A DNA stretch of 37,372 bases from a virus. The translations under genes and the position numbers were made by a program. The stretch covers positions 1-37,372 of the IMG/VR virus record IMGVR_UViG_3300035703_000218; one strand, 5' to 3'. The notes beneath the pieces are model-generated. The model had not been told where the DNA came from. It saw only the letters and a list, made by a program, of their open reading frames with translations, and searched no databases. Below, piece after piece: positions 31,915 to 37,372 of this stretch (position 1 is its first letter; every line of letters begins with the position of its first letter).

Positions 31915-33771
31915 ATGACAACGCTCCTCGAACGAGCGGCGCTTTGGCTCGCCAAGGTACCGCCAGCCATCTCCGGATCCGGAGGGCACTCTCAAACCTA
32001 CACCGCCGCCGTGGGCCTAGTCCACGGCTTCGGGCTGTCCGACACCGACGCATTCGCGCTCCTATCGGACTGGAACCGCTCATGCCAACCTCCATGGCAG
32101 GACCGCGAACTCCTCCACAAGATCAGGCAGGCCAATGAGAAGTCCCACTCCAAGCCCCGCGGCCACCTCGCCAATTCATCGGGAGCAGGTCCATCTGAGC
32201 CATTGGACCTGACACGGGTCCGGTTCAGCCGGCCAAAGCCCGTGGAGGCATCACAGAAGTCCGATGGGTCCGTGGCGTCCTCCGCGCCATCAAACCCGCC
32301 CGCAGCGCCTATCCCGGCCTCGCACGATGCCTCGGAGTTCAAGCGGTTCCTCACATCCGCCTTCGCGCCCACCGAGGTGGTCTGCATCTGCGAGCAGGTC
32401 GAGGACGGTACCCCCATGACCAGCGGATCCTTCCTGCCCGTCGAGGATTGGATCGCCCGCTTCGATGACCCCGAGTCCATCCTCTTCCGACCCGATCGGA
32501 ATCAAGGCGTCTTCGTCCGCATCAACCCGTTCAAGCCCAACTTCTACAGCGGCTCCGACAACGATGTGATGGCCTACCGCCATGTCCTGGTGGAGTTCGA
32601 TCAGAAGCCAAAGGCCGAGCAGGAACAGCTCCTCCGATCCTCGGGCCTGCCGATCAGCGTACTCATTGACTCCGGTGGCAAATCCATCCACGCCTGGGTC
32701 CGTGTCGATGCCCCCAATCGCAAGGAATGGGACGCCCGCCGTGACGCCATCTACGCGGCAATCCCCGATGTAGATCCCAAGAACAAGAACCCATCGCGCT
32801 TCTCCCGGCTCCCGGGCGCATGGCGGGGCTCTGAGAAGCAGAAGCTGTTGGCCAGCAATCTCGGCGCTCGCTCATGGGAAGAGTGGCTCACCGATCGGGA
32901 GACCGATGATGACAAGGCCACCGTCGTCACGGTCAAAGACCTCATCAACTTCGATCCCGACAAAGATCCGGACAACCTCATCGGCAAGCGGTGGCTTACC
33001 CGCGGATCCTCCATGATCATATCCGGTGGAACCGGCATCGGAAAGTCATCCCTCATGATGCAGATCGTCATCCAATGGGCCATGGGCAGAGACTTCTTTG
33101 GGGTTGCACCGGTGCGACCACTCCGCATCGGTATCGTGCAAGCAGAGAACGACAAGGGCGACCTCGCAGAAGCCTTCAGGGGAGTCATCAAGGGGCTCAA
33201 TATGCCCACTTCCGATATCTACACCCTCCAGGAGAACCTCCACTTCAGGACCGAGGCAGTCCGCACCGGGGACGCGTTCCTCGCCTACGCCCGCCGGTTC
33301 ATCACCCGATCGAAGCTCGATGTCATCATCGGTGACCCGCTCTTCTCCTACTTCGGTGGCGATCTCAGCGATCAGGGCGAGGTCAGCGTGTTCTTGCGCA
33401 ACAAGCTCCAGCCCATCCTCCACCAGACCAAGGTCGCTTGGATCTGGATGCACCACATCTCCAAAACCCAGCGCAAGGACGGCGAGCCCATGACCACCAT
33501 GGAACTCGCCCACGCAGGGTTCGGATCCAGCGAACTCGCCAACTGGGCGCGGGAGATCGCGGTGCTGGTAGAATTAGGCCAGTCGAAGCCCCGTAGGTTC
33601 CAACTGGCCTTTTGCAAGCGGGGATCGAGGCTGGATGCTAACTCACTTCATCTTCAGCATTCTCCCAGCGGGATTGTGTGGGAGCAGTGGAACCCGATGG
33701 TGATGACAGGGGCTCAGTTGAAGGAACCGAGTGGTAGGAAGGGAGGTTATCCCAAAAGGCGGGGTCCTTAG
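31915..33771 (+). CDS. Primase-helicase (AEP-like plus RecA-like)
   Basis: The 618-residue protein has three parts. The first 80 residues form a helical domain (DAFALLSDWNRSCQPPW then ELLHKIRQANE) like the PriCT-1 type of primase-associated helices. Residues about 140-320 resemble archaeo-eukaryotic primases with VEFD (226-229), DSGGKSIHAWV and NPSRFSRLPG. From about 360 a RecA-like ATPase shows Walker A GGTGIGKSS (371-379) and LDVIIGDPL (Walker B, about 468). It should prime and unwind DNA at the phage fork. The leader is CAGCAACGCAACGAC, no Shine-Dalgarno. Its last 134 bases overlap a minus-strand gene. Confidence 0.85.
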   Translation: MTTLLERAALWLAKVPPAISGSGGHSQTYTAAVGLVHGFGLSDTDAFALLSDWNRSCQPPWQDRELLHKIRQANEKSHSKPRGHLANSSGAGPSEPLDLTRVRFSRPKPVEASQKSDGSVASSAPSNPPAAPIPASHDASEFKRFLTSAFAPTEVVCICEQVEDGTPMTSGSFLPVEDWIARFDDPESILFRPDRNQGVFVRINPFKPNFYSGSDNDVMAYRHVLVEFDQKPKAEQEQLLRSSGLPISVLIDSGGKSIHAWVRVDAPNRKEWDARRDAIYAAIPDVDPKNKNPSRFSRLPGAWRGSEKQKLLASNLGARSWEEWLTDRETDDDKATVVTVKDLINFDPDKDPDNLIGKRWLTRGSSMIISGGTGIGKSSLMMQIVIQWAMGRDFFGVAPVRPLRIGIVQAENDKGDLAEAFRGVIKGLNMPTSDIYTLQENLHFRTEAVRTGDAFLAYARRFITRSKLDVIIGDPLFSYFGGDLSDQGEVSVFLRNKLQPILHQTKVAWIWMHHISKTQRKDGEPMTTMELAHAGFGSSELANWAREIAVLVELGQSKPRRFQLAFCKRGSRLDANSLHLQHSPSGIVWEQWNPMVMTGAQLKEPSGRKGGYPKRRGP

Positions 33772-34261
33772 TCGCTTCCTGCAATTTGCGGAAGTTCTCT
33801 TCCTTTGCCCTTTCCTCCAGCTCCTCGGAATCCACATCCGGGGAGCTTTTCTCTTCCTGAGCCTCATCGTCTGAGTCGGCCACATCCTCGGTCTTTCTGC
33901 CTCCCTTGCGACGACGCAGCCACACTACCTCACCCTTCACCTTACGAAGCTCAGACCTCAGCGATGATATATCACGCTTCATCTCAGTGATCATTGCCAA
34001 TAGCATTGATACCTTATCAACCTCCTCGGCGGGAACCCAATCACAACCACGCCACTGGCGATGGATACGATCGAATATCAATACCGCGCTCTTCATGTGG
34101 CGCATCGAATCAAACGCACGAAGTGCACGACCCAATTCACACCTCAGGTTCTCGCGGATGTAGGTCACGACCTCGGACCGAGTTGGGTCTGCGTCGTGCC
34201 TCATCGGCGGCATCAGGCGGAACATGGCGCGGAGGGTGGAACCATTCTCTAGATAACTCAT
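33638..34261 (-). CDS. Minus-strand coiled-coil protein (207 residues)
   Basis: Minus-strand ATG 34261 begins a 207-residue protein with an N-terminal helical, Arg-rich part (VVTYIRENLRCELGRALRAF then SAVLIFDRIHRQW), a coiled coil (AMITEMKRDISSLRSELRKV), a basic patch (WLRRRKGGRKTED) and an acidic, Ser/Pro-rich tail. Its build recalls small DNA-binding regulators or partition-like adapter proteins, but I recognise no family. A 9-base inverted repeat lies directly over its start. Its 3' end is antisense to the primase end. Confidence 0.65.
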   Translation of the reverse strand: MSYLENGSTLRAMFRLMPPMRHDADPTRSEVVTYIRENLRCELGRALRAFDSMRHMKSAVLIFDRIHRQWRGCDWVPAEEVDKVSMLLAMITEMKRDISSLRSELRKVKGEVVWLRRRKGGRKTEDVADSDDEAQEEKSSPDVDSEELEERAKEENFRKLQEATKDPAFWDNLPSYHSVPSTEPLSSPSGSTAPTQSRWENAEDEVS

Positions 34262-34286
34262 GGGAGAACCAAGGTACGTTCTCCCA
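34261..34286 (-). promoter_or_regulatory. Inverted repeat at start of minus-strand gene
   Basis: TGGGAGAAC (34261-34269) and GTTCTCCCA (34278-34286) form a perfect 9-base inverted repeat with an 8-base spacer. The arm nearest the gene includes the first base of the ATG. It could be an operator for a dimeric repressor, or an mRNA hairpin that hides the start, since no Shine-Dalgarno is nearby. Confidence 0.6.
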
Positions 34287-34356
34287 GGACACCCGTCAAG
34301 TACCCAGAAGGAACTTCCAATCACGGTCCCAGAAAGTTCCGCGCCTCCCCCGCTAT

Positions 34357-34398
34357 CTCCCCTAAAAGGGAGTCTTAATACTCCCTTAAAAGGGAGTC
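34357..34398. repeat. Two tandem palindromic 18-mers
   Basis: CTCCCCTAAAAGGGAGTC (34357-34374) and CTCCCTTAAAAGGGAGTC (34381-34398) differ at one base and start 24 bases apart, separated by TTAATA. Each is itself an imperfect palindrome. They are AT-richer than the surroundings. Paired operators, iteron-like sites, or small terminator stems are all possible. Confidence 0.65.
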
Positions 34399-34409
34399 AA
34401 AAATAGCAT

Positions 34410-34463
34410 CGCCGAGACGCTGCGGGGGCGTTTTAAGACGCCCCGCGCTCGGCGGCAATTTTT
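34410..34463. terminator. Bidirectional terminator
   Basis: CGCCGAG (34410-34416) pairs with CTCGGCG (34448-34454), and inside GCGGGGGCGT pairs with ACGCCCCGC with one bulged G. The plus side is followed by TTTTT (34459-34463); the minus side by TTTTT after six bases. It can end plus transcription coming from the primase side and minus transcription coming from the right. Confidence 0.7.
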
Positions 34464-34760
34464 GAGAACCCCCGATTCCGGATTGCGAAACTTGGAAGTG
34501 GGGAAGTGGCTGCTGCGGAGGTGCGGAGGTGCGGAGTGGTGGTTGGGTGGAGGAATGGGAGTGCCCCGCGCTGGAGCGGAAATGGGCCACCAGTGCGTCG
34601 GAGGGTGCGGGAAGGGTGGAAGGACGGTAGGCAGGGTTCGCGGGGCTGGAAATCGAAGGGCCGAAACCGCTCCATTCTGCCGCTCCATTCACCCCGGGGA
34701 TGATTGGCCCACTCGATCCCGCTCCATGATGAGGTATCGGGGCATTAGCATTTCTAATTT

Positions 34761-34784
34761 CCGAATTCCGAATTCCGAATTCCG
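34761..34784. repeat. CCGAATTC x3 tandem repeat
   Basis: Three direct 8-base units (CCGAATTC, the last ending in G instead of C) follow each other. Each is nearly its own inverse, so the block can fold. It is the most AT-rich spot of the gene-free region. Similar aattccg-type blocks are known to me from intergenic DNA of some Verrucomicrobiota and Planctomycetota; that host hint is weak. Confidence 0.6.
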
Positions 34785-34908
34785 TATGGCTTATGGAGGA
34801 TTGGGGAATAGTGATAAATCGGGGAAGCGGGAGCGGGAGCTTGTGACAAATGGGGAGGGAGCTTGTGTTAAATCGTGCACATGAGCGGCGGGGCATAGCC
34901 CGGCATGA

Positions 34909-35032
34909 GCGAGTAGGACACGGCGTGTCTGACCTGGTCGGACATTGGGTGTCCTAGGGGGCGAAACCTGGCTCCGGGGGTAGGGACACTAGGTGACCGA
35001 GTAGGAAGGAAGGAAGGGGACCGAGTGGACAC
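34909..35032. repeat. Degenerate GAGTAGGACAC-like repeats
   Basis: Three related 13-mers occur: GCGAGTAGGACAC (34909), ACCGAGTAGGAAG (34996) and ACCGAGTGGACAC (35020). The first contains half of the palindrome GACAC-GGC-GTGTC (34917-34929), and GTGTCCT (34949) and GGGACACT (34983) add further copies of the core. Iteron-like or protein-binding sites are possible. Confidence 0.4.
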
Positions 35033-35047
35033 CGGATCCGGGCAAAG

Positions 35048-35076
35048 AAAAACCCCGCAGGGCGAACCATACGGGG
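35048..35076 (-). terminator. Terminator of minus-strand operon
   Basis: On the minus strand CCCCGTA pairs with TGCGGGG (one G-U in RNA) and is followed by TTTTT, then CTTT. It begins 24 bases after the last gene of the minus operon (stop at 35100). Confidence 0.75.
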
Positions 35077-35099
35077 GCGAGAGGAGAATGGCCTACTTG

Positions 35100-35189
35100 T
35101 CAGTTCCCGGCGAGGGCCGACAGCGCCATGAGGAGCACGAAGAAAGCGCCAAGGAGAAGATACCCAAGGGCACGAAAGAGGTCGGTCAT
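35100..35189 (-). CDS. Tiny membrane protein (29 residues)
   Basis: The minus-strand ATG at 35189 overlaps the upstream TAA (TAATG). The product is MTDLFRALGYLLLGAFFVLL then MALSALAGN: a short polar head and one membrane helix. It is the last gene of the operon, before a terminator. Its hydrophobic end recalls the first gene of the same operon (ALVALIESMGG). Function unknown. Confidence 0.55.
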   Translation of the reverse strand: MTDLFRALGYLLLGAFFVLLMALSALAGN

Positions 35190-35422
35190 TAGATCATTCC
35201 AAGGGCGATTAGGAGTGAAGGGCAGCCATGGCTGCAGCGCCCGTCGGGCTCGACAATGCAACCCTCAGTGCAGCACGCAGGACTTGTACCCTCGAACATA
35301 GCATGGCGGGCGTATTCAAAAGCGCCGTCTTCAGAGGGTTCCCAACCCTCGTTTTCAAGCGCTTCCATGGCGCTGATTCGGTACGGGTTGCGGGTTGCGG
35401 TAGGGACTTGTGTGGTTTTCAT
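35189..35422 (-). CDS. Cys-rich CCTEGC/HGCPS small protein
   Basis: The minus-strand ATG 35422 is the likely start; the open frame from 35629 is not, since it runs over the upstream gene. The 77-residue product has SPACCTEGCIVEPDGRCSHG then CPSLLIALGMI. Small proteins ending in 'CC..GC.VEPDG.C.HG.PS.LLALG' are widespread but uncharacterised as far as I know; the five Cys and one His suit a zinc or Fe-S site. It is coupled to the 29-residue gene by TAATG. Confidence 0.75.
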   Translation of the reverse strand: MKTTQVPTATRNPYRISAMEALENEGWEPSEDGAFEYARHAMFEGTSPACCTEGCIVEPDGRCSHGCPSLLIALGMI

Positions 35423-35486
35423 GTTTTCTTGTAAGGGCGTCAATTGCCCGCAGAATCCACCGTTGCCGATGGACTCGCCGGGAAAT

Positions 35487-36176
35487 TCAAGCTTGGGCTT
35501 CGATGAAATGCCGCTTCCCGGTCCCGTGGGCAGGAATGAAAACCGAACGGACACCCGAACGGGCGCCCGCGCAGGCCTGACAATCGATGCAGGGGGTCCC
35601 GTCGCGATCACTGGCGCAAAGAGTCTCAAAGGTCCAATGATCGAGGTCCGGGGTGACGCGGAAGGTGCTCCAACCCATAGAGCGGGCGATGACCAACTCT
35701 GCTGCAGTGTCGACGGAGGCCATCAATAGTTGACGCCAACCTTGCATACTGGGCTTGCGCCATTGATGCGTGTAACCAGTCCAACCGCTCGAAGCGCCGG
35801 CAATAGCAAGCGCAAGCGATAGGGGGAGATGCGTGGGATCCCCGTACGCTCCGAAGCGAACCCGCCGCCCCTCGAAAACGGAAACGGAAGGGAGCGGAAG
35901 ATAAGCGCCCGCTTTCCATGCCCGCCAGATACCGAGAGGCGCTTGGCCCACGTTGACGTAGCAGGAACGACCGGAGCCGTCGCCGTTGCCGCGGTGGACG
36001 CAATTGCCGCAAATCAGACGGTCCAACCCTTCCTGAATTGCGCGGACGGGATCCATGGAGCGGACAAGGATCCACACTTGGATCATGTCGCCGGTTTTCC
36101 GGTTGTCCGAAGGGGTCTCGAAGCCCGTCGCGATCATGACGCGATGCTGGTCCTCATGGAGAATGAAGCCGTTCAC
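35487..36176 (-). CDS. Conserved phage/plasmid GYTHQW-type protein
   Basis: The minus-strand GTG 36176, with GGAGG six bases upstream and overlapping the preceding gene by GTGA, is the best start. The 229-residue product carries ICGNCVHR, CYVNVGQAPLGIWRAWKAG, RFGAYGDPTHLPL, WTGYTHQWR, LMASVDTAAE, GWSTFRV and CIDCQAC. I remember this motif order from phage and plasmid proteins of unknown function. Seven Cys (56, 59, 72, 187, 196, 199, 202) could hold one or two metal or Fe-S centres. The neighbours are small membrane and Cys-rich proteins. Confidence 0.8.
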   Translation of the reverse strand: MNGFILHEDQHRVMIATGFETPSDNRKTGDMIQVWILVRSMDPVRAIQEGLDRLICGNCVHRGNGDGSGRSCYVNVGQAPLGIWRAWKAGAYLPLPSVSVFEGRRVRFGAYGDPTHLPLSLALAIAGASSGWTGYTHQWRKPSMQGWRQLLMASVDTAAELVIARSMGWSTFRVTPDLDHWTFETLCASDRDGTPCIDCQACAGARSGVRSVFIPAHGTGKRHFIEAQA

Positions 36177-36283
36177 TGGAGGCCTCCCATCGATTCGATG
36201 AGGGCGACAAGCGCCATGATTAGAACGAAAGCAAGGGCAGCGAAAGCGCCTTGCCAATGGGAGGGAATACGGGGCTTTTTCAT
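36173..36283 (-). CDS. Small membrane protein (36 residues)
   Basis: The minus-strand ATG 36283 begins MKKPRIPSHWQ, then one membrane helix (GAFAALAFVLIMALVALI) and ESMGGLQ. It is the first gene of the minus-strand operon and overlaps the next by GTGA. Its start lies 97 bases from the divergent small terminase gene. Function unknown. Confidence 0.6.
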   Translation of the reverse strand: MKKPRIPSHWQGAFAALAFVLIMALVALIESMGGLQ

Positions 36284-36380
36284 GATTTGAAAGGAACCGA
36301 CTATCGGTTCACGGGGGGAAGTAAACCAAACAAGACACATCTTGTCAACACCGGGCAACAAAAAGGTTGCAAGGGGGAGA
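36284..36380. promoter_or_regulatory. Divergent control region
   Basis: The gap between the minus operon and the small terminase gene holds GAACCG-ACTAT-CGGTTC (36294-36310), a perfect ACAAGA-CACA-TCTTGT palindrome (36330-36345), GCAAC-AAAAAG-GTTGC (36355-36370), and TTGTCAACACCGGGCAACA (36343-36361), which resembles the region before the early operon at 23325. No clear -10/-35 pair was found for either direction. Likely operator and promoter sites for both. Confidence 0.5.
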
Positions 36381-36851
36381 ATGAGGGGAGAATGCGCCGA
36401 TATGGCCAAGGGAAAGGATAAGGAAGCGCTCCAGGTGGAAAGGGTGGAAAGGAAGGAGGCACCAATTCCTTCTGTCCGGAAGCCACTAAAAAAAGGTCCT
36501 CCACCAAAGGAGGTTGCTCCTTCCGATTGGAATCGGGTCCTCGACGGCGCTTCACTCGGGATCCCTTTCGATCGCTTGTGTCACCTTGCGGGCATGACGG
36601 ATAAGACCTTCGCCAAGTACTTGCTCCGATACCCCGAACGAAAGGAGGAGATCGATGCTGCGAAAACCCGGGGCGAGTATGACCTCACCTCCGTTGTCCG
36701 TTCCTGCGGTCCCGGATGGCAGGGTTCCGCGTGGTTACTGGAGCGAACCCGCGGTTACGTAGCAAGAGCCCAACTCGAGCATACCGGCAAAGGAGGGAAG
36801 GAACTCTCGGTAAGCGGAGCCCTACTCGGAGCCTTCGGAGGCGGTAAATAG
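36381..36851 (+). CDS. Terminase small subunit
   Basis: The gene precedes the large terminase directly, and the product (156 residues from ATG 36381; ATG 36402 also possible) is basic at the N-terminus (Lys/Pro/Glu-rich) with a helix-turn-helix-like stretch (FDRLCHLAGMTDKTFAKYLL), then YPERKEEIDAAKTRGEYDL and a Gly-rich end (GALLGAFGGGK). That is the plan of a DNA-recognition small terminase. GGGGGAG lies before 36381. It would bind the packaging start and load the large subunit. Confidence 0.75.
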   Translation: MRGECADMAKGKDKEALQVERVERKEAPIPSVRKPLKKGPPPKEVAPSDWNRVLDGASLGIPFDRLCHLAGMTDKTFAKYLLRYPERKEEIDAAKTRGEYDLTSVVRSCGPGWQGSAWLLERTRGYVARAQLEHTGKGGKELSVSGALLGAFGGGK

Positions 36852-37372
36852 ACCACGGGGGGGGACCACCCCCAAGAGGGGGGTGGGTGTTACCTGTATA
36901 CCCCCTCCCCCTACCGACCCCAATTTTATGCCCGTCAAGCAAATTAAGCGGAAGAAATCCCCTTCACTAGGAATGGGTTCTCACATCCCTGCGTGGAAGC
37001 AGCGCAAGCTCCTGGAGGAGGCTCAGCAGTTGAAGAACTTCCCGAAGATGATGCTTGGCCTACGCGATGTATATCCCTGGCAGGAGGCGGTGCTCGGGGC
37101 GTTGAACGAGAAGCACTCGAAGGTAGCCCTGAAAGCTGCTAACGGCTCTGGCAAAACGAGCATGGTCGCCGCGAGCGCGGTCATCTGGCACATGCTCCGC
37201 TGGCCGGGGAGTTTGGTCGTCTGTACGGCTGGCGTGTACCGACAAGTGGCCGACGCTCTGTGGCCTCATCTGAGGAAGATGATCAATGGCTTGGGCGGCG
37301 AGGAGAACGGCTTCTCGATCAAGGATGGTGAGATCCGCTACGTGTACCCGAAGAAAGTGGATGGTCAGGAGC
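36785..37372. repeat. Terminal direct repeat, right copy
   Basis: Second copy of positions 1-588, offset 36,784. It covers the small terminase end, the GC hairpin and the first part of the large terminase. Confidence 0.92.
36928..37372 (+). CDS. Terminase large subunit, 5' part (second copy)
   Basis: This is the first 148 codons plus one base of the gene seen whole at 144-1679, cut by the window end. Thirteen bases differ from the first copy and all changes are silent. The Walker A motif is kept. It shows that the window runs past a full genome length rather than a gene duplication. Confidence 0.9.
   Translation, partial: MPVKQIKRKKSPSLGMGSHIPAWKQRKLLEEAQQLKNFPKMMLGLRDVYPWQEAVLGALNEKHSKVALKAANGSGKTSMVAASAVIWHMLRWPGSLVVCTAGVYRQVADALWPHLRKMINGLGGEENGFSIKDGEIRYVYPKKVDGQE

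Follow-up and report, generated by a model that had tools for sequence, protein, structure and literature searches.

The window, by which we mean the whole stretch of DNA analyzed (37,372 nucleotides), is the entire IMG/VR record of one phage. Four ORFs encoding proteins of 36, 229, 77 and 29 residues run along its minus strand from 36283 to 35100 and are referred to here as P3, P1, P2 and P4, respectively. The features of the locus are as follows:

36402..36854, plus strand: divergent neighbor, a probable small terminase gene located before terL and conserved in its place beside the operon
36320..36348, minus strand: promoter-like element TTGACA-N17-TTTACT in the divergent region, facing the operon, as read from the sequence
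36173..36283, minus strand: P3, 36-residue peptide with a single transmembrane (TM) segment, sharing a GTGA overlap with the start of P1
35487..36176, minus strand: P1, 229-residue GYTHQW protein of PHROG 2554, with a GTG start at 36176
35189..35422, minus strand: P2, 77-residue Cys-rich CCTEGC protein, an optional member of a variable slot
35100..35189, minus strand: P4, 29-residue peptide with one TM segment, MTDLFRALGYLLLGAFFVLLMALSALAGN; its gene is the constant one at the locus
35045..35076, minus strand: intrinsic terminator, with stem CCCCGTATGG/CCCTGCGGGG followed by a T tract, directly 3' of P4

The positions and overlaps agree with a preliminary description of this DNA: all four ORFs were found in place, with the GTGA overlap, a 64-base gap between P1 and P2, and a TAATG overlap at the P2/P4 junction. 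The same description had proposed a divergent control region and a terminator belonging to the operon, and both were recovered. Of the 46 loci that share the P4 subtype of this operon, 15 have a comparable element at a fixed position, a rate to be set against about 1% for control stretches; the 86 loci of the other P4 subtype all lack it, so the element at 36348–36320 is promoter-like and not universal. A strict consensus promoter scan did not include it among the listed elements. The divergent gene had no PHROG match, and its name as a small terminase therefore comes from its position and synteny. The gene cluster is more than a chance arrangement, since P1 is highly conserved, P4 is under purifying selection, and P2 and P3 recur in relatives.

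In the 80 closest viral loci, P1 is followed by P4 in all but four (76 loci); those four (L015, L023, L032 and L049) stop shortly after P1. Among 62 distinct P4 sequences, which fall into two subfamilies, pN/pS was 0.17–0.22, showing that P4 is a real, selected gene. A hairpin followed by a T tract was found no more than 67 nt past the P4 stop codon in 86 of 87 relatives. These hairpins had 31 different stem sequences, showing that the terminator is real. Two degenerate DNA-pattern scans for P4 yielded 133 further loci with enough upstream sequence, of which 97 encoded P1 and 36 lacked it. P4 is thus a backbone gene of this phage group and not a dedicated partner of P1. One contig assigned to a Verrucomicrobiota MAG (L128) carries P1 and P4 in the same arrangement. 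This is a weak hint of a Verrucomicrobiota host, as the contig may be a binned phage.

P1 matched the PHROG 2554 profile with an E-value of 8.2e-66 over residues 10–226. This PHROG has no assigned function, and P1 spans the last 220 of its 529 profile positions. By tblastn, matches to P1 were found in 147 phage records (from phages of Mycobacterium, Klebsiella, Gordonia, Microcystis, Roseobacter and others) and on 6 plasmids, and homologues were also present at 42 bacterial genome loci and in more than 500 viral contig stretches. NCBIfam gave no match. When the neighbors of diverse P1 homologues were clustered, no constant partner gene emerged; the recurring neighbors were integrases, terminases and a DUF932-like gene, named by inspection of their sequences.

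Conservation was assessed in 85 diverse members that were 33–88% identical to P1. Cys56, Cys59 and Cys72 were invariant and Cys187, Cys196, Cys199 and Cys202 nearly so, the seven positions being Cys in 84–85 of the 85 sequences. The first group reads CX2C-X(6-31)-C in all 85 members, with a fixed CX2C and a spacer of 6 to 31 residues between Cys59 and Cys72, and the second reads C-X8-CxxCxxC. Other conserved residues are N25, K27-T28-G29, Q33, R107, G109-x-Y111-G112-D113-P114, T133-G-Y-T-H137 and H217-G. Judged from the sequences, such a pattern is more in keeping with a catalytic or cofactor-binding protein than with a structural part of the virion.

A few P1 homologues have unusual features. 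Two have long C-terminal extensions (L098, 5836–8019, 727 residues; L138, 4989–6125, 378 residues). Other long ORFs considered as fusions appear to result from upstream read-through. The chromosome of Calothrix sp. NIES-4101 has three copies of the family (L130, L131 and L132), whose aligned part lacks the N-terminal 50 residues and with them the KTG motif. The homologue in phage Ma-LMM01 is gp072. The early genes of that phage are gp054–gp063 (PMC5780444), so the P1 homologue is not of the early class, at least there; the transcriptome paper does not mention it by name (PMC5780444). No other expression data for a homologue were found, and these count against the reading favored below.

The gene content upstream of P4 was surveyed in 99 P4 loci with at least 1.8 kb of upstream sequence, after removal of near-duplicates. 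The slot was headed by P1 at 70 loci, by an unrelated 206-residue gene at 17, by a glutamine amidotransferase (GATase)-like gene at seven and by a 106-residue gene at three; 27 of the 29 loci lacking P1 thus held one of these three alternatives. P1 never occurred together with the 206-residue or the GATase-like gene (0 of 99 loci). The 206-residue protein has no known relatives. The GATase-like protein resembles class-II glutamine amidotransferases, with weak matches to GATase_6 and to a PHROG, and has MC at its N-terminus. In eight loci (L343, L345, L353, L362, L412, L416, L421 and L422), a protein of about 296 residues that starts with MCKLFIATG replaces P1; it is weakly similar to class-II glutamine amidotransferases and its gene ends directly at P4. 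In the 80 closest viral loci, zero to three small genes separated P1 from P4; they came from about a dozen families, including P2, and the gaps ranged from −4 to about 820 bases. About 30 gene orders were found among the 99 loci. These results bear out the proposal that the operon carries a cargo module, in that P1 occupies an exchangeable gene slot upstream of P4.

The small genes bear on whether the four genes form one fixed system, in which Cys-rich P2 and the membrane peptides P3 and P4 act together with P1. The overlapping genes, laid out as one transcript, would suit such a system, and P2 indeed occurs only with P1 (19 of 70 loci with P1 versus 0 of 29 without; Fisher p = 0.001, uncorrected for relatedness). 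A small gene encoding DLIQRDAF behaves in the same way (32 of 70 versus 0 of 29), showing that some companions follow P1. P1 was also encoded in all 20 viral loci retrieved with P2, so the two Cys-rich proteins do co-occur. However, P2 was present in only 23 and P3 in only 15 of the 80 close loci, P4 is found without P1 as described above, and P1 is encoded by many phages, plasmids and bacteria, with no match to P2 or P4 in the five phage and plasmid regions tested. The obligate four-gene system put forward earlier is thus largely refuted, and we consider it very improbable. Nor is the CCTEGC protein widespread, as had been stated: it gave one weak match in 50,697 phage records and was otherwise found only in this phage group.

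Alternatively, the function of the locus might lie mainly in P4, which could act in lysis or exclusion, for instance, with P1 carried along as a passenger. P4 and the terminator are, after all, the constant parts of the locus, and P4 combines strong purifying selection with a single TM segment. On the other hand, no functional homologue was found for it, either in PHROG with the P4 consensus or in PADLOC with the P4 sequence from the window, and P1 is conserved across unrelated phages that lack P4. We consider a P4-centered locus somewhat unlikely. PADLOC had no match for any of the four operon proteins at E-values up to 1.

A relative of P1 was found in DUF7227 (PF23872), a family likewise without a known function that includes proteins from the Pseudomonas phages PAK_P2 and JG004 and from cyanophages. 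P1 itself scored only 14 bits (E = 0.039) against DUF7227, under the Pfam gathering cut-off of 27 bits, but 60 of the 85 P1 relatives matched it at E ≤ 0.1, the best at 4.8e-8. When a separate alignment of 29 DUF7227 proteins was compared with the P1 alignment by hhalign, the two matched with a probability of 97.6 (E = 3.1e-12) over 190 columns. By these alignments, P1 belongs to a sister family of DUF7227, sharing common descent over most of its length; the score below the cut-off is why we do not call it a member. Common to both are N-KTG, CY, GD, YTH, CPA..CxxCxxC and AHG. CPDACPxKxxGCYA, AGDL and GFTYTHY in DUF7227 correspond to CGxC...CYV, YGDP and TGYTHQW in P1, and DUF7227 also has CPA..CxxCxLC and AHG. 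Unlike P1, DUF7227 has CX3CX6C as its first site and lacks GYTHQW. The predicted folds are similar. DUF7227 matches in P1-bearing genomes proved to be P1 itself. In the record of Pseudomonas phage PAK_P2 (58392–59053; L213/L216), the DUF7227 match is split across two reading frames, unlike in a close viral contig (L217), where it is uninterrupted in a single 223-residue ORF.

AlphaFold2 models were obtained for P1 (pLDDT 96.5) and DUF7227 (pLDDT 94.1). Searches of PDB sequences with P1, the P1 profile and the DUF7227 profile gave no meaningful match, and a Foldseek search of the PDB with the P1 model returned only unrelated folds (best E = 0.19). With VIA-align, the eight best PDB entries for the P1 model were all radical SAM proteins, including PFL-AE (Z = 4.2, rmsd 5.2 over 146 residues), SkfB (4.0), a viperin-like protein (3.5) and spore photoproduct lyase (3.0); barrels of other families began at Z = 2.8. 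The first seven entries for the DUF7227 model were also all radical SAM, among them EpeE (Z = 6.5, rmsd 4.6 over 156 residues), PFL-AE (6.2), viperin (6.1) and QueE (6.0), with other TIM barrels just behind (CutC, 6.0; TrpA, about 5.6). Every one of these Z-scores falls within the range that VIA-align calls a common arrangement.

In the P1 model, strand 32–38 is followed by the Cys loop (56–72), helix 79–88 and strand 105–111, which ends in YGDP. Then come helix 119–128, strand 131–136, a helix, strand 152–155, a helix and strand 171–175, and finally the four-Cys segment (187–202), strand 211–215 and a helix. In radical SAM enzymes, strand 1 leads into the cluster loop and strand 2 into the GGE position (PMC6231123, SkfB paper). 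The model matches this layout in the order of its strands and in the placing of the Cys loop and YGDP, if our strand-by-strand correspondence is correct. As in PFL-activating enzyme, viperin, QueE, EpeE and SkfB, P1 may form a partial α/β barrel with a three-Cys loop after the first core strand and a Gly/acid motif after the second, and it has an extra, cluster-like group of Cys. Unlike them, P1 lacks CX3CX2C and a literal GGE, having YGDP in its place, and is shorter. The Pfam Radical_SAM profile (PF04055) found no match in the 85 P1 members at E ≤ 0.1, and hhalign showed no significant link to a phage DUF5131 family represented by only four sequences. Given the low Z-scores and the missing canonical motif, Pfam match and DUF5131 link, we call P1 radical-SAM-like and not a member of the superfamily. 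Judging by the models, its fold is probably derived from the radical SAM fold. The seven conserved Cys and this predicted fold agree with the preliminary suggestion of a protein that uses a metal or an Fe–S cluster.

The Cys groups could instead be structural zinc sites in a non-catalytic, TIM-barrel-derived protein, such as one that binds a host protein. The C-X8-CxxCxxC group could hold zinc, and such a protein would account for the missing radical SAM motifs and the weak PDB matches. Against this, the three-Cys group occupies the position of a catalytic loop and is surrounded by invariant polar residues (N25, K27, Q33, R107, YGDP and H137) in a pattern typical of an active site, and the best matches of two sister families, each modelled on its own, are radical SAM structures. 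We regard the zinc-binding protein as unlikely.

In a viral structure library, the P1 model matched, beyond its own family, DUF7227 and then, non-significantly, Gp37/Gp68 (DUF5131) and Gene product 88 (PF17338). The latter two are structural neighbors of the DUF7227 model (BFVD E ≈ 3e-5). A search with the PF17338 profile in the P1-bearing genomes and five phages gave no match in any genome and is hence uninformative, and in the literature searched we found no link between DUF7227, DUF5131, three-Cys-motif proteins or GP88 and radical SAM. In a Methylovulum sequence (L297, 1492–3533), a DUF5131 gene (C-X6-C-X2-CY) lies directly before a 432-residue gene whose product we take to resemble a three-Cys-motif partner protein. 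Tentatively, and with less than even confidence, we suggest that GYTHQW/PHROG 2554 and DUF7227, possibly with Gene product 88 and Gp37/Gp68, might form one unrecognized, phage-centered superfamily of minimal radical-SAM-like enzymes. Their cluster motif would be atypical, GYTHQW and DUF7227 would have an additional cluster between the last two strands, and these enzymes would serve as exchangeable cargo modifying a nucleotide or host component during infection.

For the operon itself, the reading that we favor, with moderate confidence, is an accessory cargo cassette in an exchangeable slot, led by P1 as a minimal Fe–S radical-SAM-like enzyme. The slot, belonging to one phage lineage, would extend from the divergent control region next to the terminase gene as far as P4 and the terminator, which form its other boundary. 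P1 would be a minimal Fe–S protein with a predicted partial (β/α)6 barrel of the radical SAM type. The catalytic [4Fe-4S] cluster of radical SAM enzymes is bound in the loop that follows the first core strand, and this is where Cys56, Cys59 and Cys72 would be located; GxYGDP, closing the second core strand, would take the place of the GGE of those enzymes. A second metal site would be formed by Cys187, Cys196, Cys199 and Cys202, which come between the final two strands. The most likely activity of P1 would be to modify a nucleotide, a nucleic acid or a small metabolite by means of SAM or a cofactor related to it, to the benefit of the phage in host takeover or in counter-defence; no link to a substrate or to defence was found. 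P2, P3 and the remaining small genes would be interchangeable companions that are not needed as subunits, and P4 would be a core membrane peptide whose gene happens to come last in the transcript.

Such a slot resembles phage accessory-gene hotspots, such as anti-defence and host-takeover clusters, in having constant flanks between which small genes are rapidly exchanged. Unlike at those hotspots, no known anti-defence gene was recognized at the P4 slot. To our knowledge, it is unusual for a constant 29-residue TM peptide and a terminator to serve as the anchor of a slot. In the search for counter-defence or takeover genes, the slot is of use as a natural catalogue of accessory genes that are interchanged within one phage lineage. 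Taken together, P1 and DUF7227 are found in more than 300 phage records, among them phages of Mycobacterium, Klebsiella, Pseudomonas, Gordonia and cyanobacteria. Nearly all are labelled "hypothetical", and recognition of a likely Fe–S radical-SAM-like active site makes the biochemistry of both families testable and points to residues for mutation.

Elsewhere in the genome, terL, portal, major head protein, RecT, exonuclease VIII, SSB-like protein and primase genes were identified. The window contained no tRNA and no Rfam match at the gathering threshold. Between the primase gene and the minus-strand operon (33771–35100) lies an ORF-poor stretch of more than 1 kb with GGAGGTGCGGAG-type and TTCCGAATTCCGAA repeats, a possible origin or recombination site. 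The ends of the record (1–588 and 36785–37372) overlap by 588 bases with 97% identity and no gaps, and several of the mismatches affect the third base of terL codons. The record has the appearance of a genome of about 36.8 kb that was assembled as a circle, with its ends from slightly different variants.
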